The notes beneath the pieces are model-generated. The model saw only the letters and a list, made by a program, of their open reading frames with translations. It had not been told where the DNA came from and did no database searches. The position numbers were made by a program, and so were the translations under genes. 31,963 bases of DNA from a virus: positions 1-31,963 of IMG/VR virus record IMGVR_UViG_3300030331_001523. One strand, given 5' to 3'. Within the stretch, counting starts at the first letter, position 1, and each line of letters starts with the position of its first letter. This document shows, in pieces, positions 5,186 through 27,584 of the stretch.

Positions 5186-5620
5186 CTATTTCCTTCCAGT
5201 CTTTGGTTTTCTTTTAATTGTTATTCCCTTATAATTATAACTAAGTTCCCTTCTTCTCTCGCCTAGTGGGCTTATCTTTGCATCGTAAGAATCCCATGTA
5301 TTTGTATGGGTTTGATTCCACTTATCAGTTACTCTTCTAAAGGTTTGGTCTATTAATTTAATGCTTGAGCTGAATCTCCGACCTCTTCCAAAACATCTTA
5401 CTTTTTTAATATTTAAATATCCCTCATAAGTAAATAAAGTGTCTTGTATCTGCGTGTTTGGAAAAAATGTTATAAATATTTTATTGTCTGTAATGGTAGC
5501 TTTTTTAACGTCTACGTTAATATTTATTGACATTCTACCAGAATATTCTATTTGCATAGATAAAATACTACCTTTAGAATCAAAGTCTACATGGTTTTGA
5601 TATTGTATTAAATTACTCAT
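5186..5620 (-). CDS. Small tail-associated hypothetical protein
   Basis: A 144-residue protein lying between the tail-tip gene (8-base overlap) and the last tail gene (2-base gap). The N-terminal half is beta-strand-like (LIQYQNHVDF, ITDNKIFITFFP), while the C-terminal third is strongly basic (RCFGRGRRFSSS, GERRREL, TIKRKPKTGRK). I recognise no family. Context suggests a minor tail-tip or assembly factor. The basic tail could contact DNA or the peptidoglycan surface, but nothing in the sequence proves either. Confidence 0.5.
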   Translation of the reverse strand: MSNLIQYQNHVDFDSKGSILSMQIEYSGRMSININVDVKKATITDNKIFITFFPNTQIQDTLFTYEGYLNIKKVRCFGRGRRFSSSIKLIDQTFRRVTDKWNQTHTNTWDSYDAKISPLGERRRELSYNYKGITIKRKPKTGRK

Positions 5621-8600
5621 TTGACTCTACTGGGTATGATAGCGTTAAAATAATATAATCTTCAGCAGGATTCAGATTAAAATTGGTATGATTTATCTCA
5701 ATTAGGTTGCCATCTTGATATAAATCTATTTCACCATTTTCATAAACAACTGGTTCGCCATTTGGATAGAGCATATATTGGTAATTTAATCTAAAAAAAG
5801 TATCAGTCCCAGCAGAAATTCTAACAAAAAATCCATCAAATGCTAGCCAATTATTAATTTTTACCATATTAGAACTAGTAGGTGCGCCATTATAATCCTC
5901 ATATTCTTGGTGGTATGATAAGTTAACTTTACAATATATACCACTTGTAAACTGAAAAACATCTGGGAACGCATCCCTTAATTCAGCTAAAGTTGCATTT
6001 GGCACAATAGTATTATCAGCTCCTGTAAGTATTGGATTGCTAGTAGTAATATTAAGTTGAAGCCCAGTTTGATACTGCCAACCCCCAATATCAGCATCAA
6101 GCCCACTTGCAGCATAATGATGCCTAGTAGATAAAAGTTCAGCGTATCCATCATCATCTGCATCATCACTTGTTTCTGGAGTTCCATATATCTTTACATT
6201 AACATCATTAATTTCACCAACGTAATCAGGATATGCGCCTACGCCAATAAGGTTAGAACCATCAATCTCAGGGGCATCTAATGTTATTATAAATCTTTTA
6301 AGTTGTGGTGCTACATCAGATATATGCACGATACTTTCAATAGTATAATATCCTGCAGCGTTCAACCATGGATAATATTGTGGGCTAATTAAATCTCCTG
6401 TAAGCGTGGGCTGAAAAGTTATATTTGTACCAACTAAAGTTAAATTATTTGCAGATAATTCCTCTAAATAATCATTAAGATCTAGCATTTCGTTTATGGT
6501 ATGCGCTTGTGCAATTTCTACTACAATATTATCTCCAGAATGATACATAGCAAGAACGCCCAAGAATTCATTAACTGATGTGTCTATAAGTAAATCACCA
6601 ATCGGAGTAACTTCTGCTGGTGGGACTTTTTTGATTGCATCAATCGCAGCTACATCTTCTGCTGTTATCATACCATCTCTAGGCTCTGCAATATCTCCAT
6701 TTGCTATTGCATTAAGAGAAAGTGGATTTGCTACTGGATCATCTACATAGGCTTGTGCTGCATCGACATCATCTTGAGTCACATATCCATCTCCAGTTAC
6801 GTCCCCAGGAAGATATGAGTCGCCCATTGTTTCTATATAATAATCCATAAATGCCACCAAATCAAGAGCATCTATATTTCCATCTCCTTCAAGAGGATAG
6901 TTATTAATATCTCCATTTAATATTTGTTGTTCATTTAAGTTTGCCCCAACAGGATTATTTACAGCAAATAAAAGCAAATCATAGTCTGCTGACTCAAATC
7001 CAGTCCCATTTAAAGTTAAATCACCAGGAGTTTGAATTAAATCCTCCTCAGTATCATCATCTCCAGTATCATCATCTCCAGTGTCATCATCTCCAGTGTC
7101 ATCCTCATCATCGTCAATAGGTGGTTCTGGAATTTGGGTTAATCCTATAAGCTCATGTATCTGTATTGCTTTTATTGACACGCTATCCATAGTCTTATTG
7201 ATATCAGTTATCATAAAATAAGGTAGTACAAATTGTTGATTACCTGGGCTTATATTCGGCAAGAAAGGTAATCCTGTAGGCTGCATAATATCAACGCCAT
7301 AAGGAGAGAAAAATGATTTATAATCTCCATCTCCTATAGCTTTAAAATTTATTATATCTCCAACCTCTAATTCAAAACCTTGCGATAGATTAATTTTAAA
7401 ATCTACAATAGTATGCTGATTTTTATGTAATTCATGTAAATGGTTTCTAAGGAGTATAGCAGTTGGTTCATCTTGTATATATGGAGCTTCATGCTCTAAT
7501 AAAAACTCATCACCACTAATATCATTATCACTCAATCCATAGTATGCCTTGTAGTCCTCTGTATTTGGGACTTGTATTTCTTCTGTAACGTGCTTAAAAC
7601 TTTCTGTAATATAGTCATATCCATATTTTACTCTACATTTTACTGCAAGATCTTCGATATTAGTCTTGCTAAAGTTGTAAGATTCAATGTAGTCAACAAG
7701 TATAGTTTTATCTACATCGTCTCCAGCATAACTATTTTTCATACCTATAACTGTTGGCAATGAATTACTTAACCCAGTCTTGTAAAAAAAGTTTGTATTT
7801 TGCGCCACTTGCTGTAATACATCTACTGTTTTCTGTGGCTTATCTATAGAAAAGTTTAGTTCGTAATTGCTATCTGCTGTATTTTTTGTTACGAAATCCC
7901 CTTGACCAAACTCTCTATTCATTAAATCTTTAACTATTACCTTTGGAGTTTTTATTATTTTTTTAGCACCTTCAAAATCTGTATCGTAAGGATCAAACCA
8001 AAGAGTTACTTTTTCTTCTAAAGGCTCAGAATTTATTTCGCTATTAAATTCTTCTACCTCTATTGTTGTTTCTTTTATATCTAATATATTTCCATTAGCA
8101 TCAACTTCTTTAGTGCAATACCACAATTCAACTTTAGGTACAATAACATTTCCATCCTCGCCTAAACTATTTATGTTACTATTAAAAAATGAATTTTCGT
8201 TAAAAAAGTCACTTTCCTTTCTAAAGTATGTCCCATTTATGTAGATTGCGTGCATAGCAGTGTTTGTAAATTCAGTAGTGATTTGATTTATATCAAGGTC
8301 AAATATATAGCCTATTTCATTTTGCATATCAGCATTAACAACTTCAGTATTATCACTAATATTGGTAAAATCGACTTTAATCATTATTTCTGCTTTTAAT
8401 CCATCAACTTCAATAAATCTTAATTTGTCATTACCGATATAATCCAATAAGTATCTGAATAGTAAGTCGTCTGATGGCAAAATTTCAGTCCCACTATTAG
8501 GACATCTTGGGTTAGGGCTAAAATAAGCTAACTTCATACTATTAATATCATAAACTCTGTTATCGTCATAAACTCCAGAATGTCTACCCTTAGCATTTAA

Positions 8601-10529
8601 AAACATTTTATTATTAAGAGCATCTTTTTGATACCAAAGTCTCCTCATTAACATTCCTTTAAACTCTGCGAAAAAGTCTAAGTCTATATAGATATTAGCA
8701 CCTTCTTCAAGATCAAATGGTACAAAATTAATTAATACAGATCTTGCATCGTGCATAGGGTAACTAGAAATAAAGTCCCCTCTATTTCTAAATTGATTTA
8801 TTTCTTCATCAGAACCTTCATTAACTGGATTGTTAAATGGATTTCTATGGTCATCCAATCTCTGAGCTGCATTAACAAAGTCATTTTCTATCTCAAGCCT
8901 CATAGGGGCAATAACCCTAGGTCTTTTTGCGCACTCATGTACGCCAAATGTATTAATTAATCCTTCTTTAAAAGTTTCATCCCCATCCTCATCAGTAATA
9001 GTTATACCATTCAAGACTTCTGGAACAAATCCAACAGGATTATCAGACTGAAAAGCATTACCTATATCTATATCTTCACTATCGTATGCAACAGAAATAT
9101 TGTAAGTTTGATTTGATTTTGTGCTAAAGAAGCACATAGCCATTCTAGCATCACCTTGGAATCCAATGCTTGTGCCAGTAAACTCAGTCTTCGTATTTAT
9201 AAAAGTAATGATATTAAAATCAGATGGAGCTTCTATCCCTTTAACATCAGTAAAAACATCTGGAGATGATTTCATCTCTTCAAACTGAAATTCTATACAT
9301 GGATTATCTACTATTCTTTCACGATGGCCATCATCTGCTTCTTCATAATGATTTCTAGGAGACCTAGCTCCTCTTACAGTCTGCAAGTAATCGTTTGAAG
9401 AATTTTCAATATTGCCCCATTTTGCAGATACATTTGTAAATAAATCTGAATCAGAAAAATCGCTAGGATTTATATCATTATCAAAAGTATATCTTCCAAA
9501 ATGATGATGTTCATTAGGCAGGCCAGTATCTGAATCTTGCCCTGCCTGCTCATCGTGAGCATAAAAATTGTAGTAACTATTTACTTTTTCTAGCTTTGAA
9601 AGTTCAGATACAAGTAATGCTCCTTGGTTTAAATATTGAGATGGATTATTGTTAGAGCTGTCAACATCTTCAAAAAACTCTATATAATTATTATAAATAT
9701 CAAATTGTTTGTCAAAAGGCTTTCTTAATATCCTATCGTTCGCCTGCCTTGGCATCAACTTTAATACTCTAGCGCCCCCATCACCAAGTTTTGCAGTTAA
9801 AACATCTTGATCTATCACTTGAGTAGTAATTGCATTGGCCAAGTCATGAGTGTATTGTTGGAAATCCATTCTTTTTATGCCAACTATATCATAATTGCTT
9901 ATGTAAGCATTATCTGGAAATACCCTTGTTGCATTTGTTTCATTGTCTATATATGTAATCGCTGGAGCTTCTTTTAAATGGCCATACAATATAGGTATTC
10001 TTTCCTCGTTATAGACTTCATACGTCTTGCCATTTAATGTTGCCCCTTCATTATCTTCTGAATACAATGTATATTCTTTTTTAGGAAGTTCAGTGTTAAG
10101 TGATTGGGTAAGATATTCCTCACACTTTATTGTAACCTTTTCTTTGTCCTGATCGAATCTTGTGACTTTTAAGGTAGCTAATTTTGCGCAATCTTCTAAA
10201 GACTCACAACTACCTGTCTTTAAGTAAATCTCCACAGTTGCATTTGCTAGGCCATATTTTGCTCTATCTGTAAATCTTTTACCATTTATCTCATAATTAT
10301 TCAAGGTAATGGTTGTTCCAGACATCTTTACTTTCTTAGACTTAAAGTTAATAGATTCTTTTAGCCCACTAACTCTTAAATCTAAGTCTTCGTAGTAGTT
10401 ATCTTCAAAGTATTGTTGTTTTGTTGATATGTAAAATGTGTCATTGGCAGATGATATTACAGCCATAACATCGAAATTATTAATATCAGTAATTAAATCT
10501 TTTTGTATACTCTCAGGTATTGTTATCAT
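5613..10529 (-). CDS. Tail tip / hub protein with acidic linker and dockerin-like repeats
   Basis: The largest gene, 1638 residues, directly downstream of the tape measure gene (ATGA overlap), where siphoviruses encode their tail-tip hub. Residues 1-1130 are beta-rich; the region about 890-1130 (VDVLQQVAQNTNFFYKTG, LRNHLHELHKNQH, LEVGDIINFK, YFMITDINKTMDS) resembles the hub part of J-like tail-tip proteins. A low-complexity linker of DDDTG units (about 1137-1163) follows. Residues about 1205-1305 hold three dockerin-type calcium loops: GDGNIDALDLVAF, GDVTGDGYVTQDDVDAA and RDGMITAEDVAAI. A further ~330 residues of beta-rich C-terminus probably bind host structures. No enzymatic motif was seen. 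Confidence 0.7.
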   Translation of the reverse strand: MITIPESIQKDLITDINNFDVMAVISSANDTFYISTKQQYFEDNYYEDLDLRVSGLKESINFKSKKVKMSGTTITLNNYEINGKRFTDRAKYGLANATVEIYLKTGSCESLEDCAKLATLKVTRFDQDKEKVTIKCEEYLTQSLNTELPKKEYTLYSEDNEGATLNGKTYEVYNEERIPILYGHLKEAPAITYIDNETNATRVFPDNAYISNYDIVGIKRMDFQQYTHDLANAITTQVIDQDVLTAKLGDGGARVLKLMPRQANDRILRKPFDKQFDIYNNYIEFFEDVDSSNNNPSQYLNQGALLVSELSKLEKVNSYYNFYAHDEQAGQDSDTGLPNEHHHFGRYTFDNDINPSDFSDSDLFTNVSAKWGNIENSSNDYLQTVRGARSPRNHYEEADDGHRERIVDNPCIEFQFEEMKSSPDVFTDVKGIEAPSDFNIITFINTKTEFTGTSIGFQGDARMAMCFFSTKSNQTYNISVAYDSEDIDIGNAFQSDNPVGFVPEVLNGITITDEDGDETFKEGLINTFGVHECAKRPRVIAPMRLEIENDFVNAAQRLDDHRNPFNNPVNEGSDEEINQFRNRGDFISSYPMHDARSVLINFVPFDLEEGANIYIDLDFFAEFKGMLMRRLWYQKDALNNKMFLNAKGRHSGVYDDNRVYDINSMKLAYFSPNPRCPNSGTEILPSDDLLFRYLLDYIGNDKLRFIEVDGLKAEIMIKVDFTNISDNTEVVNADMQNEIGYIFDLDINQITTEFTNTAMHAIYINGTYFRKESDFFNENSFFNSNINSLGEDGNVIVPKVELWYCTKEVDANGNILDIKETTIEVEEFNSEINSEPLEEKVTLWFDPYDTDFEGAKKIIKTPKVIVKDLMNREFGQGDFVTKNTADSNYELNFSIDKPQKTVDVLQQVAQNTNFFYKTGLSNSLPTVIGMKNSYAGDDVDKTILVDYIESYNFSKTNIEDLAVKCRVKYGYDYITESFKHVTEEIQVPNTEDYKAYYGLSDNDISGDEFLLEHEAPYIQDEPTAILLRNHLHELHKNQHTIVDFKINLSQGFELEVGDIINFKAIGDGDYKSFFSPYGVDIMQPTGLPFLPNISPGNQQFVLPYFMITDINKTMDSVSIKAIQIHELIGLTQIPEPPIDDDEDDTGDDDTGDDDTGDDDTEEDLIQTPGDLTLNGTGFESADYDLLLFAVNNPVGANLNEQQILNGDINNYPLEGDGNIDALDLVAFMDYYIETMGDSYLPGDVTGDGYVTQDDVDAAQAYVDDPVANPLSLNAIANGDIAEPRDGMITAEDVAAIDAIKKVPPAEVTPIGDLLIDTSVNEFLGVLAMYHSGDNIVVEIAQAHTINEMLDLNDYLEELSANNLTLVGTNITFQPTLTGDLISPQYYPWLNAAGYYTIESIVHISDVAPQLKRFIITLDAPEIDGSNLIGVGAYPDYVGEINDVNVKIYGTPETSDDADDDGYAELLSTRHHYAASGLDADIGGWQYQTGLQLNITTSNPILTGADNTIVPNATLAELRDAFPDVFQFTSGIYCKVNLSYHQEYEDYNGAPTSSNMVKINNWLAFDGFFVRISAGTDTFFRLNYQYMLYPNGEPVVYENGEIDLYQDGNLIEINHTNFNLNPAEDYIILTLSYPVESNE
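7051..7107 (-). repeat. 15-bp in-frame tandem repeat coding for the DDDTG linker
   Basis: Three full copies plus one partial copy of a 15-base unit (read on + as GTATCATCATCTCCA, with GTGTC variants) begin at 7051, 7066, 7081 and 7096. In the tail-tip gene on the - strand each unit encodes a D/T/G pentapeptide, giving a flexible, strongly acidic linker between the hub-like part and the dockerin-like repeats. The unit is a multiple of three, so copy-number slippage would change linker length without breaking the frame. Confidence 0.85.
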
Positions 10530-14455: not shown

Positions 14456-14893
14456 CTAAGCTGTATTGCTATGATGTTGTCCTCTCCATACTAATTCGAC
14501 AACATATTCATTTTCATCTTCTAAACTATTTAGAGTGCTTGACTCAATTCTACAATTAAATACATTAGTAGAGTCTGTTAGTGTCATTGCAATATTATCA
14601 TGCACCAAAGCTTCTATCCTTGAAGTGTATCTAAGTACATGGTCGAGAGATGATTTCTTTATATTTTTGTCAAGAAAGTAATAATACATATTAACTGTAA
14701 ACTCTCTTATCTCGCCATTAACATTATACTCAGTTAGCTCAGACCCTACTGGATCTAATCTTAAAAACTGCGCACCTGCTTGATTGGTCTCATGGCCTAT
14801 ATATACAGGCAATGCACCCTTAAATTCTGTCCTTATCGTATTGCGTAATTTATCAAGAATATTCTTAAAGTTGTTAGTAAAATTTACATCCAT
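14456..14893 (-). CDS. Putative tail terminator / head-tail joining protein
   Basis: A 145-residue protein whose size and pattern match tail terminator proteins: an N-terminal helix (NNFKNILDKLRNTIRTEF), a beta core with PVYIGHE, REFTVNMYYYFLD and YVVELVWRGQ at the end, and the helix SSLDHVLRYTSRIEALVHD. Such proteins cap the tube and join it to the neck. Gene order (connector, this gene, then major tail protein) supports that role. It begins in a TAATG overlap with the connector-like gene. Assignment by position and shape only. Confidence 0.6.
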   Translation of the reverse strand: MDVNFTNNFKNILDKLRNTIRTEFKGALPVYIGHETNQAGAQFLRLDPVGSELTEYNVNGEIREFTVNMYYYFLDKNIKKSSLDHVLRYTSRIEALVHDNIAMTLTDSTNVFNCRIESSTLNSLEDENEYVVELVWRGQHHSNTA

Positions 14894-15861
14894 TATAAAT
14901 AATGCCTTCTTCTAGTCATTTTTATTCCTTTTAAGTCTCCAGTATCAACTTCTTCGTTGTATCCTCTGACTTCAACTTCCCATTCGTTGTTAGCAATAGC
15001 AGAATTAAGATTGCTATGACCAAACCTGATTTGTAATCCATAAGCTAAAGGCTGATAGTCTCCAGTAATAACCTCTTCTGTGACTACTTGATTTGTTTTT
15101 AGTCCTGTACTATCTTTTACAAATACATTATATGTAGCTGTTCCTAATGCGCCCCCTGTTCCTATAATTACTTTAATCAAATCATAGTCAACACCACCTG
15201 CTCTACCTCTCAAGTCTACTGGTCTCATCTGATCGTCATTATAAGCTATATCCCTTATTACTCCCCTAGAGGCATCTCCAGTATTCTGCCAAGAAAGTGC
15301 AGCTCTACCTTCATTTAGAAGTTGCACGTTATTATCAGCTTCTGTCATAAGCGCAGTTGCTAATTCTGATGTTGGGTCTTTAGTCTTTACCATAAACGCA
15401 GCAGCATATAAAGCAGTTGTTCTGACAATCATGTAATCAAATTCACCATCTCCATTTTTCCACATATTTTTAGGTAGCTTAGGGTCAAGTCTTGAATCTA
15501 AATATCTACTTGCATCGGTTCTAAATTGGGTTACCATCGCAGAAAAGTCTTCACCTGCCTCCACAAGTATATCGTTGGGGTCAAGAGTAGCGCCAGCATT
15601 TGTTGTAAGGAATACTTGTACAGAATCTGTAGTCGGTGAATAATTAAATTCATAGATAGCATTAGGAGAATCAGTTACAGAAGTACCCTCTATGCCATCA
15701 AAATATAATTGTGTAATTAAGCCTGTATCATTTGCTTGATATTGATGAGTTGTATCTGTTGTTGTCCAACCATATATAGGAGTCTTTTGATCATACTCAT
15801 CAAGCTGTGGAAATACTCTTTTTAATTCTGCGTGCGTACAATATATTGGTGCTGATGCCAT
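14893..15861 (-). CDS. Head-tail connector / neck protein
   Basis: A 322-residue protein placed between the basic-protein cluster and the tail terminator-like gene. The N-terminal part (CTHAELKRVFPQLDEYD) and the later helices (ASRYLDSRLDPKLPK, RTTALYAAAFMVKTKDPTSE) resemble adaptor proteins of the SPP1 gp15/HK97 gp6 kind, which bind beneath the portal. These helices are separated by a long beta insertion (about 30-110) and followed by a beta-rich C-terminus (SRGVIRDIAY, VDYDLIKVIIG) that such small adaptors normally lack, so it may combine adaptor and extra neck functions. Both ends are TAATG junctions. Confidence 0.55.
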   Translation of the reverse strand: MASAPIYCTHAELKRVFPQLDEYDQKTPIYGWTTTDTTHQYQANDTGLITQLYFDGIEGTSVTDSPNAIYEFNYSPTTDSVQVFLTTNAGATLDPNDILVEAGEDFSAMVTQFRTDASRYLDSRLDPKLPKNMWKNGDGEFDYMIVRTTALYAAAFMVKTKDPTSELATALMTEADNNVQLLNEGRAALSWQNTGDASRGVIRDIAYNDDQMRPVDLRGRAGGVDYDLIKVIIGTGGALGTATYNVFVKDSTGLKTNQVVTEEVITGDYQPLAYGLQIRFGHSNLNSAIANNEWEVEVRGYNEEVDTGDLKGIKMTRRRHYL

Positions 15862-16106
15862 TATTTACCTCTCATCTTTCTTCTGACTGACTTAGAGTAT
15901 TTCGCTCTTTGCTTGCCAGCCTTAGTTGCTTTTCTTTTCTTCCTATTTTCGTATGCCTTCTGGCCAGGAGTAAGACTATCTCTAACAGACTTAGGTAAGT
16001 ATCTACCACGTTTACTCTTAGGTTTCTTTTTATCTTTAGAGCTAACATAATCCCACTTTTGTTTAGTCCATTTCTTTAATGACTTTTGTGACTTTTTAAG
16101 TGCCAT
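15861..16106 (-). CDS. Highly basic small protein, DUF5872-like
   Basis: An 81-residue protein with about 41% Lys+Arg (24 K and 9 R). The motif KKWTKQKWDYVSSKD (11-25), then RGRYLPKSVRDSLTPGQKA (33-51), then RKKRKATKAGKQRAKYSKSV matches the small viral DUF5872-type family known from some phages and large algal viruses, of unknown function. It is the third of four basic genes in a row within the head/neck part of the late operon, each joined by one- to a few-base junctions. I infer nucleic-acid binding, perhaps an internal virion protein that neutralises DNA; this is not established for the family. Confidence 0.65.
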   Translation of the reverse strand: MALKKSQKSLKKWTKQKWDYVSSKDKKKPKSKRGRYLPKSVRDSLTPGQKAYENRKKRKATKAGKQRAKYSKSVRRKMRGK

Positions 16107-16312
16107 TATCTATAGCCTCCACCTTTTGCTTTATACTGCCTAGCGAGCATTTGAGCTTTCCTTGCTGACCATTGACCTGCCCTTCCACCTTTAGATCCTG
16201 CCTTTATCTTTTGGAATAAACGCTTGCGCATAGTTGGTTTGGTATAGTTACCTGCCTCATTAACTCTACTTTTAGTTCTACGTTTTCTAGTTTTTCTTTT
16301 CTTTCTCGCCAT
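16106..16312 (-). CDS. Highly basic small protein, GGRAGQWSARKAQ family
   Basis: A 68-residue protein from the ATG at 16312, one base after the upstream gene's stop; an alternative in-frame start at 16369 would add 19 residues and a 56-base overlap. It starts with a dense basic run (MARKKRKTRKRRTKSR) followed by the conserved-looking block NEAGNYTKPTMRKRLFQKIK, SKGGRAGQWSARKAQMLA and a YKAKGGGYR end. I recall this block from small basic proteins of marine phages and algal viruses, function unknown. DNA or RNA binding is the obvious inference. The stop overlaps the next ATG (TAATG). Confidence 0.65.
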   Translation of the reverse strand: MARKKRKTRKRRTKSRVNEAGNYTKPTMRKRLFQKIKAGSKGGRAGQWSARKAQMLARQYKAKGGGYR

Positions 16313-16313
16313 C

Positions 16314-16574
16314 TTACCACGCCTTGCAAGACCAATATCTTGCTTTAGTTTTTGGGCCAGGATTTGCACAATTATGCCTAGCTCTAAATGATTTTCTTCT
16401 AGCTGGGCTTGACTTTTTAATTCTCATTTTAGGGTCACCAAAGGTTACTCTTTTTACTTTTCCAGCTCTAGTTTTAACATAAACTTGAGATTTCTTTTTC
16501 CCAAAACCTGGCTGACCTCTTCTTATGCGACTTGGCTTATTGAGTCTAACTGACTTTCCTCTATACTTAGCCAA
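16314..16574 (-). CDS. Highly basic small protein, FRARHNCANPGPKTKARYW family
   Basis: An 86-residue protein starting at TTG (16574), two bases after the upstream stop; no ATG is available in this frame before the stop at 16604-16602, and GGAAAAAGTGAG lies just before. The sequence holds YRGKSVRLNKPSRIRRGQ (4-21), VTFGDPKMRIKKSSPARRKS and then FRARHNCANPGPKTKARYW with CKAW at the end, a signature I know from small conserved proteins of many marine phages. The two Cys residues (near 69 and 83) could bind a metal with the neighbouring His. Function unknown; basic charge and context suggest a packaged or capsid-associated DNA-binding protein. Confidence 0.65.
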   Translation of the reverse strand: MAKYRGKSVRLNKPSRIRRGQPGFGKKKSQVYVKTRAGKVKRVTFGDPKMRIKKSSPARRKSFRARHNCANPGPKTKARYWSCKAW

Positions 16575-16575
16575 C

Positions 16576-16671
16576 TCACTTTTTCCTTTTTCTTCTAACT
16601 TTCATTTTTCTTTTTTTAGACTTCTTAGGTCTTCCTCTTTTTTTACCATATGTACCTTTACCATAAGGCAT
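16576..16671 (-). CDS. 31-aa AT-hook-like basic peptide
   Basis: A 31-residue ORF, 58% Lys+Arg, containing KKRGRPKKSKKRK (10-22). RGRP flanked by basic residues is the core of the AT-hook, which binds the minor groove of AT-rich DNA, and this genome is AT-rich. It lies between the 519-residue virion protein (11-base gap, GGGGG before its ATG) and the TTG-started basic gene two bases downstream, and it fills a gap that would otherwise be empty. It would be transcribed together with the other three basic proteins, which supports its being a real gene rather than chance. Confidence 0.65.
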   Translation of the reverse strand: MPYGKGTYGKKRGRPKKSKKRKMKVRRKRKK

Positions 16672-16682
16672 AGTCTACCCCC

Positions 16683-18242
16683 TTAAAATGTTTCTACTTT
16701 TAATGTTGCTCCACCTTTTTGCTGTGGAGTATTCCCTAATACTTCCATTAGTGAATTTACTTTTGCTGCATCTGTGGAATCTTGCTTACCACTAAATGGT
16801 GCGTTGTATAATGCGCTTATTACAAACTCTGCATTTGGACAACTTGGTATCTGCCAGTCTATTGCACCTGTCTCGTAATTTATACTACCTACATTACTAC
16901 CACTATAATTTAAATTCCCATATCCATCATCTGTTATAAATATATTTTTATAAGATGTACTATAGGTTACTCTGTCGTAGTTTAACTCTGGCTCTAATCT
17001 TGCATCTACTGCGCTTGATATATTTGCAAGTGCTGGGATTCTACCATTAGCTTGAGCTAAGAATCTAACTGATGCGCCAGATCCACTTGTTCCTGCTGTT
17101 AATGCTATTGCTGATGTAGATAATTTGCTTTGAGATTCAAATATAACATCTCCACCCCTTATAAACACATTTACTTTTTTCTCAAATAAATTTCCTGCTG
17201 TATAGTAAGCTGTATCTAAAGCATCCTGTATCTTTGATATTAGCCCATTAGCTCCACCAAAATTACCATTAGTTGCATCTGTAGTAAAGTTTATCTCTAA
17301 TGCTGAACCTCCATCTGCTGCTATTGTAAGGTAATATGTAGTAGAAGCTGTTAGCCCTGTAGGTGTATTCGATGTAACATCAGATAATCCCAGACCTTGA
17401 TAACCTTTTGTATAAAACTGTATTGCAACTGATCCTGGTGTAATACCAGATAATGCTGTTGCTGTTCTTGCATATCCAAAGAAGTTAGTAGACCTATACC
17501 TACCAAGGTTATCTGTCTGGACTACACTATATTTATCATAATCATGATATTTATTAAATATTGGAAAGTAAATATTAGCACCACTTACTGCTCCAGCAGT
17601 AGAATGTGTTTGACTGTCTTTATCTGCTGCGCTCGAACCATACAATGCTCTTCTTACAGTCAAGTTATTTGTTCCTATCGCAGTAACCTCCATAACCTCT
17701 ATTCTTCTTACTGTTTCTTCGCTTACACCAAGCTGTATGCAATCTCCAACTCTAAAGTAGTCTGAGTCGCTAACATTAAATTCTGTATCAGAATCTTCAA
17801 CATTTTCTGCTAATGTTGCTCCACTAGCTACTTCTAAAAGAGAATTTGGAGCTACAGAGCTTATAACATCTCCTTCGTATAAATCTGTATCATCGTCAGT
17901 CATAATAGCCCTACTTGCTGGCATGCTTATAACTTCTCCTGGATTTAGCAAGAAATGTAGAAAGTTTTCATTTCCTATATTATCTTCATCTGTCCATTGT
18001 TGAAATCCAAAGATTGCTACAGCAGGGGTAGAGCCAGTATTAGAAACTTTTACCATAGATATGTCTCCAGACTTTTGCGATGAAGCACTTGCATCTTTAC
18101 TAATATCTAATAGTAAGTCGTTAGTTGTATCGCTATATGATATAACTTTTGTTGTGATTGTTTTTGGCACTCTAGCTTTTTTTGTTGAAACTGAAGAGCT
18201 ACCACTACCTCCAGTATATTGTATTCCTGGCATCTTTGACAT
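16683..18242 (-). CDS. Large virion structural protein (fibre/decoration-like)
   Basis: A 519-residue Ser/Thr/Gly/Asn-rich, beta-strand-rich protein with no Trp-rich or enzymatic motif. It begins with a Gly/Ser linker (GGSGSSSVSTKKARVPK at about 11-27), continues through VDSDTEFNVSD-like strands and a Fn3- or BppU-like centre (SNTPTGLTASTTYYLTIAAD), and ends in NTPQQKGGATLKVETF. It lies next to two other fibre-like genes in the late operon. I infer an exposed virion protein on the head or neck; tail fibre is also possible. GGGGAAGAATT before its ATG is a good ribosome binding site. Confidence 0.55.
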   Translation of the reverse strand: MSKMPGIQYTGGSGSSSVSTKKARVPKTITTKVISYSDTTNDLLLDISKDASASSQKSGDISMVKVSNTGSTPAVAIFGFQQWTDEDNIGNENFLHFLLNPGEVISMPASRAIMTDDDTDLYEGDVISSVAPNSLLEVASGATLAENVEDSDTEFNVSDSDYFRVGDCIQLGVSEETVRRIEVMEVTAIGTNNLTVRRALYGSSAADKDSQTHSTAGAVSGANIYFPIFNKYHDYDKYSVVQTDNLGRYRSTNFFGYARTATALSGITPGSVAIQFYTKGYQGLGLSDVTSNTPTGLTASTTYYLTIAADGGSALEINFTTDATNGNFGGANGLISKIQDALDTAYYTAGNLFEKKVNVFIRGGDVIFESQSKLSTSAIALTAGTSGSGASVRFLAQANGRIPALANISSAVDARLEPELNYDRVTYSTSYKNIFITDDGYGNLNYSGSNVGSINYETGAIDWQIPSCPNAEFVISALYNAPFSGKQDSTDAAKVNSLMEVLGNTPQQKGGATLKVETF

Positions 18243-20565: not shown

Positions 20566-20666
20566 TATCTATAAAATTTTGGCATTGGCGTTGTATCACT
20601 CCAATATTTATATGACAATCTCAAAGATTGTCTTTTTCTCTTTTGCTTTACTTGCGCTTTTTGCAT
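20565..20666 (-). CDS. 33-aa basic overlapping gene
   Basis: A 33-residue ORF (begins MQKAQVKQKRKRQ, ends TTPMPKFYR) that overlaps the 3' end of the phosphoesterase gene by 59 bases in another frame. Its ATG is preceded by AGAGG at proper spacing, and its stop forms a TAATG junction with the next gene, exactly as at other junctions of this operon. It is 30% Lys+Arg in the first half, with an aromatic second half (SYKYWSD). No known family. The coupling evidence makes a real gene more likely than chance. Confidence 0.55.
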   Translation of the reverse strand: MQKAQVKQKRKRQSLRLSYKYWSDTTPMPKFYR

Positions 20667-21819
20667 TGTATGCCTCTAATGATTTATCTATGTTATAACC
20701 TACGCCATCTGTATTTTGTAGGTCTATTTTAATCCCATCTCTATTACCATCATCATAAAATATATAGCAATTTTGACTTGCTCTACCACTTAGGTTTAGA
20801 GCTTTTTCTGCATAGTCGTTACTTCCAACTAAGCTACTTGATCTGGCGTAACCATCACCTATTCTTGCAGAATGTACATGACCAAAAATCATATAGTCTA
20901 TCGCTATGCCTTTTAAGGAGTATCTTCCTATTATTTGATTTACTGCTGATTCCAACTTACCCCTTAAAGATCCATGACCATGTAACATTAATAAGTTTTG
21001 ACCTGCTACATTTATCACTAATTCTGATGGATTCCCTTGTATAAATTTAATACAACTATCTCTAAATAAATACCTTAAACATTGGAAAATTGTATAATCA
21101 TAGTTATCTGATGCTATTATTTTTGACCATCCCATCTCAGGATTAGCTCTTCCTTCATTTCCAATAATAGAGGCAACAGTTACATTAAAGTCTTCATTTA
21201 AGTCTAAAATAGCTTGTTGGAGGATATCCACAGCAAGGAATGTAGCATTAGCTCTGTTAGTAGCTTGATTTAAGAGTTCATCGAGCCTACGATCGCTATT
21301 CATCATATCACCAGTCATAGCAACAACTATATTAGTTATGTTTGCTGTTTTAAAGTACTTTTTGGCCTTATTTACGAAAGTTCTTATTCTTTCCGATGCA
21401 ACGCTAAAATCATATCGATTGTTTTCTAATTCTACGATTTCATTGAAATGGATATCACTCAGTTGTAATACTCCACAAGCTTTATCGTTAACACTAAATT
21501 TATTAGTAGACTTGTTTAACTTATTATTTTCAAAAAGCGTTTTTAATTCTTTTGTGTATTCTTCTATAGCATTTTCGATTCTTGCGTGTTCACGAAATGC
21601 TTTATTGTATATTCTGTTGTTGTCCTGAGCTTTCTGCTTTTGTTTAGATAATCTTACATTTTCTCGTACGATATCTACATCGGCATCCCATATAGGATAT
21701 ATGGTTGTTTGTAGACATTTTTGGCACTTGTACCTTTGTTGGCCTTTTCTGTCTTTGCCTTCCTTGCGCATACCTATATGGTAGCAATTAGGACAAACTA
21801 ACTTTTTAGGGTCTATCAT
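20608..21819 (-). CDS. Zinc-ribbon metallophosphoesterase
   Basis: A 403-residue protein with two parts. Residues 9-35 form a transposase-type zinc ribbon (CPNC, then GQQRYKCQKC), the InsA-like pattern. After a helical linker (about 50-103) comes a calcineurin-like phosphoesterase: LSDIH (D122, H124), TGD (D171), GNEGR (N221), LHGHGS and FGHVHSA supply the two-metal site. The usual GNH(D/E) His is Glu222. Relatives cleave phosphodiesters in nucleotides or nucleic acids, and the ribbon suggests a DNA or RNA substrate. AGGAGG sits five bases before the ATG. It lies directly after the endolysin gene in the late operon. Confidence 0.75.
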   Translation of the reverse strand: MIDPKKLVCPNCYHIGMRKEGKDRKGQQRYKCQKCLQTTIYPIWDADVDIVRENVRLSKQKQKAQDNNRIYNKAFREHARIENAIEEYTKELKTLFENNKLNKSTNKFSVNDKACGVLQLSDIHFNEIVELENNRYDFSVASERIRTFVNKAKKYFKTANITNIVVAMTGDMMNSDRRLDELLNQATNRANATFLAVDILQQAILDLNEDFNVTVASIIGNEGRANPEMGWSKIIASDNYDYTIFQCLRYLFRDSCIKFIQGNPSELVINVAGQNLLMLHGHGSLRGKLESAVNQIIGRYSLKGIAIDYMIFGHVHSARIGDGYARSSSLVGSNDYAEKALNLSGRASQNCYIFYDDGNRDGIKIDLQNTDGVGYNIDKSLEAYNAKSASKAKEKKTIFEIVI

Positions 21820-24498: not shown

Positions 24499-25632
24499 TT
24501 AACTAATAACATTGTCAATAAGACCAATGATTCTTCTGTCACCTGCTGTGTTAGAATTTCTAACTGTACAACCATAGATTGCATCTACAGTTATTAAATC
24601 AGCTAAGTAACGATGCTGATAAGACTGTTGAACTCTTGGTGCTTGTGAAGCTGCATAGTACATTGCAGATTGGTGTACTGCAAACCCTCTAAAAGCATCA
24701 TCGTTATCGGCATTATCTGTATCAAAACCAGTCCAAGCTGCTATACCTTGATCTGCATCTGCTGAAACTGTAGAAGCATCTAGGTATGGGCTATTTGATA
24801 GGATTACTGGCATACCTAGAATATTTCCAACTACACCTGTTTGAGTAAAGCCTGCGCCTGCTGGTGCTGCTCCACCTCTCACGAATCCTGCGCCTGAATC
24901 TAAGTTAGCCAAACTTCCATATAATTTAGGGCCAAGGACTAAAGACCAGCCTTCCATAGAACCTGTTTCTGTTGTACATTTTTCCATAAGAGACCCAAGT
25001 AATGAGCTTGAAAGTGCTGTCCCTACATCAATAGTTCCATCTGCTGCTGCAAATGCAGTTCCAGAAGTTGTTCCATATACTGTAGTAAGGTTAGCTACAA
25101 CTTTATTCATAAGGTAGTTATCAACACCTCTTGAAATAGCGTAAGCAAGCTGATCTGTATACAAGCTAAATATATTGTATGAAGACTGTGCTTTAAGCGC
25201 ATCTGGAATAAATAGTGATGTCACTTTATGCTCGTTAATCTCTAATGTAGATTCAGTAGTTATCATTGAGTCACTTCCACCACCAGCAGAGTCTGATGTT
25301 GTATCAGGTGTTATTGCAGAACCCTGTGTTACTGATGATATTGGTGTTACCCCAACGTGAGGCAAGTGAATCTTATCTGCACCTACTGCATCTGCTGATA
25401 AGTCATTTGCGAGCTGAAGCATCATTGTTTTCTTTTGGAATTTATCAAGTATCGCTTGTGACCAAACTTCAGGTACAAACTCTTGACCAACTGAGCTAGC
25501 CCCTACAGCGCCAGCACCACCACTAAGAGTGTTAATATCTAGAGGATCTTCAATAGATACATTAGCCATAAGATGGTTGCCTGCATAACCATTATGCGCC
25601 CATCCTTGTATGTTATTTAATAAAAAATTCAT
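24499..25632 (-). CDS. Major capsid protein (HK97-type fold)
   Basis: A 377-residue protein right after the scaffold gene. EFVPEVWSQAILDKFQKKTM (about 51-70) is the characteristic N-arm phrase of HK97-type coat proteins; a P-domain helix (YTDQLAYAISRGVDNYLM), an A-domain loop (GVVGNILGMPVILSNSPYL) and the end HRYLADLITVDAIYGCTV follow. A Gly/Ala/Ser-rich, low-charge composition and AGGAGAAAAAA before the ATG support high expression. No protease gene is present in this window and no fused protease domain is visible, so head maturation probably relies on an unprocessed scaffold or on a protease encoded elsewhere. Confidence 0.9.
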   Translation of the reverse strand: MNFLLNNIQGWAHNGYAGNHLMANVSIEDPLDINTLSGGAGAVGASSVGQEFVPEVWSQAILDKFQKKTMMLQLANDLSADAVGADKIHLPHVGVTPISSVTQGSAITPDTTSDSAGGGSDSMITTESTLEINEHKVTSLFIPDALKAQSSYNIFSLYTDQLAYAISRGVDNYLMNKVVANLTTVYGTTSGTAFAAADGTIDVGTALSSSLLGSLMEKCTTETGSMEGWSLVLGPKLYGSLANLDSGAGFVRGGAAPAGAGFTQTGVVGNILGMPVILSNSPYLDASTVSADADQGIAAWTGFDTDNADNDDAFRGFAVHQSAMYYAASQAPRVQQSYQHRYLADLITVDAIYGCTVRNSNTAGDRRIIGLIDNVIS

Positions 25633-26258: not shown

Positions 26259-27584
26259 ATGCAAACATTTAATAACAATCTAAAAAAATTTAAGGATAAA
26301 TGGTTTGATTTTATGGGGTATAAGCCTCATAATGGTCAAATCAAATTGCACTTTCCATCGAAGGAAGATGCAAGGTTTTTTGTCATGGTATGTGGTCGTA
26401 GGTTTGGGAAGTCAACAGCAGCAGCTATGGAGGCAACGTATTACGCATCCCAACCTGATAAGCGAATATGGCTTGTTGGACTATCCTACGATAAAGCAGA
26501 CATTATGTTTAGAGAAGTTTGGAAGCGAATGGTCGTTGGTAAAGCTAATGATATAGAAAAGGCCTCAGAGAAAGAACGATATATACGCTTCAAGTGGGGT
26601 AGCGTAGTAGAAGCAAAATCAGCAGATAACCCAGATTCTTTAGTGGGGGCTGGTCTTGATCTACTTGTTATTGACGAGGCAGCTAAGGTTAAAAGAAAAA
26701 TATGGGAGATGTATTTATCTCCTACCCTAGCAGATAAGAAAGATAGTAAATGTATTTTTATTACTACCCCAGAAGGATTTAATTGGATATATGACCTTTT
26801 CTTGTTAGGTCAGTCTGATAAATTATGGGAATCGCATCAAGCTCCATCGTGGGAGAATCAGTATGCGTTTCCTGAAGGAATAGATGACCCTTTTCTTATA
26901 GAGAGAAAAAGGAATATGTCTAAGGAGATGTTTGACCAAGAATTTGGTTCTGCATTTACATCGTTTGAAGGAAAAGTTTATCCTTTTGATAGAAATAAAG
27001 ACGTTGGTCACTTTCCTTATAATCCTAATTATCCAACTTTCTGTTCTATTGACTTTGGATATAGGATGCCAGCAGTGGGCTGGTTTCAAACTCATAGAAT
27101 AAATGGCGAGTGGCATATAAATGTTATTGACGAGATTATACATGAGAAAAATATAAAGACAGATGAACTTATTAATAAAATTAAAAGCAAAGGATATAAT
27201 ACAGTTGCATACTTTGGTGACCCAGCAGGTATGCAAGCTCAAGGACAATCAGGGCTGGGAGATATAGAAATTTTTAGGAGAAATGGTATTAACGTAAGAT
27301 CTGTAAGAGATAAAGCTTCAAGAAATATTGCTTCTGGAATTACTCACGTTAGAGGATTTATTGAAAATGCTAATAATAATAGATATTTGCATCTGGATAA
27401 TAAATGCGTGGGACTGGCTCAAGATCTTGAAAACTATCGTTACCCAGAAGCTATTGAAAATAAAGACTTAAAACCTGACCCACTAAAAGATGGCTTTCAC
27501 GACCATGGATGCGATATGTTAAGATATTTTTTTATAAACCAATTTCCAATAAAACGAAATAAATTAATTATAAGGAATAGATAA
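26259..27584 (+). CDS. terL: Terminase large subunit
   Basis: A 441-residue packaging motor subunit. The ATPase domain has Walker A GRRFGKST (46-53), a Walker B LLVIDE (135-140) and a coupling motif near ITTP (about 170). The RNase H-like nuclease domain has IDFGYR (Asp265), YFGDPAG (Asp321) and DHGCDM (about 415-420). It powers DNA entry through the portal and cuts the concatemer. The start ATG is preceded by a weak ribosome binding site. It is directly followed by the portal gene (TAATG) and is divergent from the scaffold gene. The small subunit is not adjacent, lying 3.4 kb away on the other strand. Confidence 0.97.
   Translation: MQTFNNNLKKFKDKWFDFMGYKPHNGQIKLHFPSKEDARFFVMVCGRRFGKSTAAAMEATYYASQPDKRIWLVGLSYDKADIMFREVWKRMVVGKANDIEKASEKERYIRFKWGSVVEAKSADNPDSLVGAGLDLLVIDEAAKVKRKIWEMYLSPTLADKKDSKCIFITTPEGFNWIYDLFLLGQSDKLWESHQAPSWENQYAFPEGIDDPFLIERKRNMSKEMFDQEFGSAFTSFEGKVYPFDRNKDVGHFPYNPNYPTFCSIDFGYRMPAVGWFQTHRINGEWHINVIDEIIHEKNIKTDELINKIKSKGYNTVAYFGDPAGMQAQGQSGLGDIEIFRRNGINVRSVRDKASRNIASGITHVRGFIENANNNRYLHLDNKCVGLAQDLENYRYPEAIENKDLKPDPLKDGFHDHGCDMLRYFFINQFPIKRNKLIIRNR

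Follow-up and report, generated by a model that had tools for sequence, protein, structure and literature searches.

The internal head proteins IPI-IPIII of bacteriophage T4 are small, basic, DNA-binding proteins that lie inside the head (PMC9026906). T4 internal proteins are present at ~300 copies and gain entry by means of a leader of ~10 aa, and T4 gp21 cleaves after L/I-X-E (PMC9026906, PMC7697877). Internal protein I is ejected and has an anti-restriction function (PMC9026906). Among other viral proteins, DUF5872, DUF5754/Tlr6F and DUF6321 are widespread families without an assigned role. The small protein Tlr6f is reported to be conserved across polinton-like viruses, virophages and Megavirales as well as in some phages (PMC4642659), and both DUF5872 and DUF5754 are listed for the algal giant virus CpV-BQ1. 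For the cyanophage S-SM1 the virion proteome has been measured, and gp14, gp21 and T4-GC 190 are named as detected (PMC3037559).

The phage locus described here encodes four small basic proteins, P1-P4. Unlike IPI-IPIII, to which we found no sequence similarity, P1-P4 lack a T4-type N-terminal leader of ~10 aa ending in L/I-X-E, and would correspond to the mature form. Longer phage proteins that contain the P2 domain do resemble IPI-IPIII in this respect: they have comparable N-terminal leaders and LxE sites.

Four basic genes in a late operon

The window, by which we mean the whole stretch of DNA that was analysed, is a 31,963-base virus record from an uncultivated tailed phage. P1-P4 (31, 86, 68 and 81 aa) are all on the minus strand, packed together in the late operon. 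The relevant features are:

16683..18242 (-): upstream gene, 519 aa; no PHROG match
16678..16684 (-): strong ribosome-binding site AAGGGGG ahead of P1, read from the sequence
16576..16671 (-): P1, 31 aa, 58% K+R, AT-hook-like, MPYGKGTYGKKRGRPKK...; optional member of the module
16314..16574 (-): P2, 86 aa, TTG start, predicted compact alpha/beta fold; phrog_7595
16106..16312 (-): P3, 68 aa, predicted two helices and Gly-rich loop; phrog_17747
15861..16106 (-): P4, 81 aa, SLKKWTKQKW...GRYLP...ENRKKRKATKAGKQ; phrog_14910
14893..15861 (-): downstream gene, 322 aa, 1-base overlap with the P4 stop; no PHROG match
24499..25632 (-): major capsid protein, co-directional with the cassette; phrog_267, E 4e-25
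26259..27584 (+): large terminase, opposite strand, ~10 kb from the cassette

An earlier note, made from the sequence alone, had described four adjacent ultra-basic genes of these lengths, and our analysis confirms this. The P1/P2 and P2/P3 junctions are 1-base gaps, and P3/P4 (a TAATG overlap) and P4/next gene are 1-base overlaps; 11 bases separate P1 from the end of the preceding gene. The Lys+Arg content is 58.1% for P1, 33.7% for P2, 36.8% for P3 and 40.7% for P4, with pI values of 11.3-12.0, compared with a mean of 12% and a maximum of 23% Lys+Arg for the 32 window ORFs of at least 100 aa. The four genes rank highest by this measure among all 196 window ORFs of at least 30 aa. Their net charges are +18, +28, +24 and +29, respectively, summing to +99 over 266 aa, and Lys/Arg makes up almost all of P1 and of the P3 and P4 tails. 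In 40 dinucleotide shuffles of the window there were 0.125 ORFs with at least 33% Lys+Arg per shuffle, and never a cluster of four. P3 and P4 are under strong purifying selection: dN/dS is 0.02-0.06 for P3, relative to two close relatives, and 0-0.13 for P4 where dS could be computed. The TTG start of P2 is supported by its relatives, which mostly have ATG at the same place (88 ATG, 5 TTG, 4 GTG). Together, composition, shuffles, dN/dS and start-site conservation indicate that P1-P4 are real, selected genes.

Our analysis also supports a late-operon location. The further claim that the genes lie between virion structural genes holds for the major head protein, but the two flanking genes match no PHROG, so the structural context is otherwise partly presumed. 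Single-protein searches of Pfam, NCBIfam and the PDB gave nothing significant for P1-P4; specifically, there was no significant Pfam or PDB match to an HU/IHF or histone fold. None of the PHROG families to which P2, P3 and P4 belong has an assigned function. We found no account of the P3-P4 pair in the literature searched, and searches for virion proteomics of HMO-2011-type phages or pelagiphages yielded no data on these proteins. The earlier statement that the genes have no described function is borne out.

The P3-P4 pair and its partners

Do the four genes travel as a set? We scanned IMG/VR with P3, P2 and P4 and analysed the loci of the best 80 of ~600 matches for each query with family HMMs; the co-occurrence counts that follow refer to these best matches. 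In 80 of the 80 loci fetched with P3, P4 follows P3 on the same strand, within 20 bases in 52 of them and within 1.4 kb in all. Conversely, P3 is beside P4 in 79 of the 80 loci fetched with P4, the sole exception (L221) having P4 at the contig edge. P2 occurs together with P3 and P4 in 124 of the 240 loci, usually just ahead of P3 and sometimes after P4. Among the 80 loci closest to the P2 of the window, 77 are without P3 and P4, and P3 is absent from the whole contig in 40 of the 41 longer contigs fetched with P2. P1 is found in at least 28 loci, that of the window among them; it may precede P2, lie between P2 and P3, follow P4, or have no linkage to the others. Based on these co-occurrence counts, P3-P4 is an obligate core pair, P2 is a facultative but frequent partner, and P1 is an optional, mobile peptide. 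Hence, the locus survey leads us to reject the view that the four genes invariably occur as a set: only P3 and P4 stay together, while P2 is mostly found elsewhere and P1 moves around.

P1 had been described as carrying a classic RGRP AT-hook. It does contain an RGRP core with basic flanks, GKKRGRPKKSKKR, but the first arginine is variable: of 28 P1 relatives, 12 have R ahead of GRP, 3 have K and 13 have V/I/T, the constant part of the family being GKG[TS]YG...GRP. Pfam gave no AT-hook match for P1.

Two individual P3-P4 loci depart from the simple arrangement. In the isolate HMO-2011 (L242, gp63 to gp59), three genes part P3 from P4, one of them annotated as a methanesulfonate monooxygenase; a metabolic gene has thus apparently found its way between P3 and P4. 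At L180:1912-2143, P3 spans two frames, which suggests a frameshift or a sequencing error in the contig.

The genes that flank P3-P4 are mostly co-directional with it, both upstream (140/145, 97%) and downstream (137/153, 90%). Many of them belong to terminase, portal and head-tail adaptor families, and as a whole they are highly diverse (74 of 134 are singletons); the pair has thus been kept across unrelated head modules. A fixed position beside the terminase was considered and rejected: in a survey of 46 long contigs, 31 with a recognisable terminase, the distance ranged from 0.1 to ~25 kb.

P3 and P4 also occur as a single protein: six loci of the first scans (again the best 80 of ~600 matches each) have such a fusion, as do 66 of the 77 loci obtained when the fused form was the query; a P4-P2 fusion is present in locus L038. 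Bacterial genome contigs contain the fused gene in both orders, P4-P3 in chromosomes of Pelagibacteraceae (SAR11) and P3-P4 in Corallococcus, Rubrobacter, Thermomicrobiales and Pyrinomonadaceae. Fusion in either order, together with the invariable neighbourhood, indicates that P3 and P4 form one working unit, and physical contact between them would be expected. P3 has 27 invariant columns, with the motif NYTKP..RK..F..IK.G.KGG..GQWSARKAQ.LA..YK..GGGY. For a natural P3-P4 fusion, L351, the predicted structure has a pLDDT of 83.5, with a core above 90; the P3 part is modelled as two helices about the Gly-rich loop, and the P4 part as a set of helices. The unit is thus predicted to be an ordered helical protein, and Foldseek found no PDB match for the model.

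The fused form points to a known family. The DUF5872 model (PF19197, 116 positions) covers fused P3-P4 proteins end to end, at 2-105 in L302 (E 8e-4) and 2-110 in L308 (E 1e-4), although the best fused relatives score 20.5-22.9 bits, below the Pfam cut-off of 27.5. Two of 45 P4 members match DUF5872; Pfam gave no such match for P3 or P4 of the window, nor for any phage record tested. The window has the order expected for DUF5872, P3-like then P4-like, but with the unit split over two genes rather than in a single polypeptide. From this similarity, P3-P4 looks like a split DUF5872-type protein, with P3 the N-terminal and P4 the C-terminal half.

The full-length fused gene has 12 matches in 118 genomes of the SAR11 family, and these genes are cellular homologues available for comparison. 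The SAR11 and soil-bacterial chromosomal homologues indicate that P3-P4 is also able to function away from the virion. Fused P4-P3 genes of SAR11 include L296:4785-5198, L291:4785-5198 and L313:4785-5210; in L296 and L291 they cluster with genes for DUF1365, cyclopropane-fatty-acid synthase, DUF3833, short-chain dehydrogenases and TspO. A link to UV repair through photolyase is not supported, none of nine SAR11 genomes with the fused gene, themselves incomplete, having a photolyase match. In a member of the Pyrinomonadaceae, the fused P3-P4 gene (L302:2929-4052) lies beside Hva1_TUDOR and DUF3140 genes.

The P2 domain and related phage modules

P2 is characterized by the motif RRKSFRARHNC...ARYWSCKAW. 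An AlphaFold2 model built with 52 natural relatives has a mean pLDDT of 93.3 and shows two helices and several short strands, of which 29-34 and 40-45 form a pair. Foldseek gave no PDB match for this model; among viral models there were 15 matches with E < 1e-3, almost all to larger phage proteins, of which one is named XkdF and another ChaB. As modelled, therefore, both P2 and P3-P4 would be small folded domains of novel fold and not plain charged tails.

A scan with the P2 alignment finds the domain in two kinds of longer protein. In four (L451, L454, L461 and L467) it stands ahead of what by eye is an XkdF/S78-type prohead-protease-like segment, and in L454 and L467 a ChaB-like part is in front of it; these readings agree with the names of the Foldseek matches. 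In ~30 others, the P2 domain is mostly C-terminal and follows acidic linkers. N-termini of the long P2 proteins, such as MKSFRDYLAES, MKTLKDYLTEA and MKKFKQYIDEG (C48C1), resemble the T4 capsid-targeting sequence. The leader pattern M.{4,9}[LIVMF].E is present in 23 of 35 long P2 proteins, which are related sequences, and in 79 of 431 other ORFs (p = 7e-9). Furthermore, [LIVM]x[ED] stands directly ahead of the P2 domain in 29 of these same 35 related proteins, compared with 6% in linkers, a difference whose p value is overstated because of that relatedness. The P2 of the window begins MAKYRGKSV, matching the residues AEYQGRKV that follow the site in long P2 proteins. Free-standing P2 thus appears to start exactly where cleavage would leave it. 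In the window itself we identified no prohead protease.

Among Pfam families, DUF5754/Tlr6F (PF19058) is matched by 15 of 52 P2 members in a consistent register (best E 3.7e-4), with none of 22 records above the Pfam cut-off and no match for P2 of the window. DUF5872 and DUF5754/Tlr6F are the nearest Pfam families of the cassette proteins; we do not claim membership in either, since the curated cut-offs are not reached. The suggested kinship to marine phages and algal viruses is upheld to this extent, by conservation in marine phages and by weak DUF5872 and DUF5754 matches. Assignment of P2 to the Hva1 TUDOR family was not confirmed, as no P2 relative matched the Pfam model. A P2 homologue, L247 (CRP-901 gp67), is named "HVA1 family protein" in GenBank, which is probably a misannotation.

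Contigs with P2 proteins also contain PSAYAN-type and KWFKEKW-type segments. In hhalign comparisons, P3 aligned with the former at 60%, P4 with the latter at 41%, and fused P3-P4 with PSAYAN at 62% in full register; unmatched family pairs gave about 0.5% or less. Iterated profile searches merge P3/P4 with these families through intermediates such as L391. We take this as suggesting remote kinship to the modules of T4-GC 119. This protein, a polyprotein of 495-708 aa with Cys-rich variants, resembles the cassette of the window, by remote similarity, in holding P3-like and P4-like modules. In the cyanophages S-SM1 and S-SM2, a P4-like part, a P3-like part and a DUF6321-like end are in one chain, the last where the window has P2, and the gene lies between those for the terminase subunits. 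In S-SM2, T4-GC 119 bears the GenBank note "similar to Synechococcus phage S-SM1 protein", as do gp14, gp15, gp18-gp21, gp23, gp3 and the cytidylyltransferase T4-GC 190; in the stretch inspected, no replication gene or terminase has it. Since the measured proteome is that of S-SM1, and the other genes so noted are virion genes, the GenBank note most likely marks virion proteins, T4-GC 119 included.

Separate genes are seen in the pelagiphage HTVC027P, where gp49 and gp50 (P3/P4-like) are followed by a 36-aa basic peptide and then by a DUF6321-like protein. HTVC027P gp49-gp52 and gp48-gp51 of the methylophage MEP402 are like the window in having P3 or a P3-like protein, P4 or a P4-like protein and a short Lys-rich peptide near head genes. 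They differ from it in having a DUF6321-like protein and not P2, and the HTVC027P versions are of the remote type. DUF6321-like proteins (RRKSF/YCAR...W.C) in the place of P2 were also observed at L480:7347-7625, L481:4290-6416, L244:4959-5210 and L246:5675-5980. Some P2 members match DUF6321 weakly. This suggests that the DUF6321-like and P2 (RRKSFRARH...YWSC.W) domains are interchangeable or distantly related.

Possible functions of the cassette

What is the function of P1-P4? We give a probability of roughly 0.5 to their being head-internal, genome-associated, nucleic-acid-binding proteins. P3 and P4 would be two halves of one functional unit, and P1 an optional AT-hook-like peptide alongside them. 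P2 would add a further binding domain, independent of the P3-P4 unit, and in other phages this domain would undergo maturation along with the prohead. Made late, these proteins would enter the prohead or bind DNA under packaging, remain with the genome and neutralise its charge, and perhaps protect the DNA or be delivered into the next host. For the leaderless proteins of the window, the simplest route of entry would be by binding packaged DNA or scaffold. That they bind nucleic acid is suggested by their charge, and that they are packaged by analogy with their relatives; the route into the head is presumed.

The earlier note had proposed that the proteins could be packaged as histone-like condensers. 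A packaged role does seem most likely, but not one of merely histone- or protamine-like composition. Low-complexity condensers for which charge is the only requirement would account for the net charge of the cassette and for the almost pure Lys/Arg of P1 and of the P3 and P4 tails. Simple protamines are nonetheless very unlikely, because P2-P4 conserve specific residues and folds, as judged by the invariant columns of P3, the predicted pLDDT of 93 for P2 and above 90 for the P3-P4 core, and the strict pairing of P3 with P4. Protamines have low complexity and no conserved fold, a description that does not suit P2-P4 but could suit P1. Similarly, the size, charge and Gly/Lys-rich loops of the proteins resemble, in our reading, extensions of ribosomal proteins, as would suit RNA- or ribosome-binding proteins that favour late translation. 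There is no significant match to a ribosomal protein in Pfam, NCBIfam, PDB sequence or fold searches, and the linkage is to head genes, which leaves such a function highly improbable.

Frequent proximity to terminase, portal and head-tail adaptor genes, including the order terminase-P3-P4-portal in L017, L031 and L078 and P3-P4-TerL in MEP402, could instead indicate late-expressed DNA-binding assembly factors that aid packaging or prohead assembly and are not kept in the mature virion. We consider this unlikely: the distance to the terminase varies widely, the terminase of the window is far away on the other strand, and in the relatives, the leader, the cleavage motifs and the tag linked to S-SM1 point to packaging. 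The fused genes of SAR11 chromosomes and of soil bacteria raise the alternative that the proteins are directed at the host, acting late on its nucleoid or RNA, or being ejected against its defence as T4 internal protein I is, and mimicking the host P3-P4 protein. The placement of the cassette in the late block, and protease-type P2 fusions that have no relation to the host, make such a role decidedly improbable.

If the head-internal reading is correct, the pairing, the fusions, the P2 contexts and T4-GC 119 would provide one idea for all three of the families DUF5872, DUF5754/Tlr6F and DUF6321, namely head-internal nucleic-acid binding, and many abundant marine phages would carry dedicated genome-associated core proteins. 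Trypsin-based proteomics would tend to miss such proteins because Lys/Arg-rich chains give peptides that are too short. We also raise, as a speculative and rather doubtful extension, that P2 and P3-P4 belong to an ancient, shared repertoire of viral core proteins, which would serve as a chromatin-like kit for genome packing and have passed between unrelated groups of viruses. In small marine phages the members of this kit would be separate genes, and in T4-like phages parts of a polyprotein that is processed by proteolysis; algal giant viruses and polinton-like viruses would have them as DUF5872 and DUF5754/Tlr6F proteins, and SAR11 and soil bacteria would carry cellular counterparts.

Two other minus-strand genes of the window were examined by eye. 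One (5613-10529) encodes a 1638-aa late protein with DDTGDD repeats and dockerin-like Ca-binding repeats, e.g. PGDVTGDGYVTQDDVDAAQAY; the other (20608-21819), among the late genes, encodes a 403-aa metallophosphoesterase-like protein with an N-terminal Cys4 zinc-ribbon.
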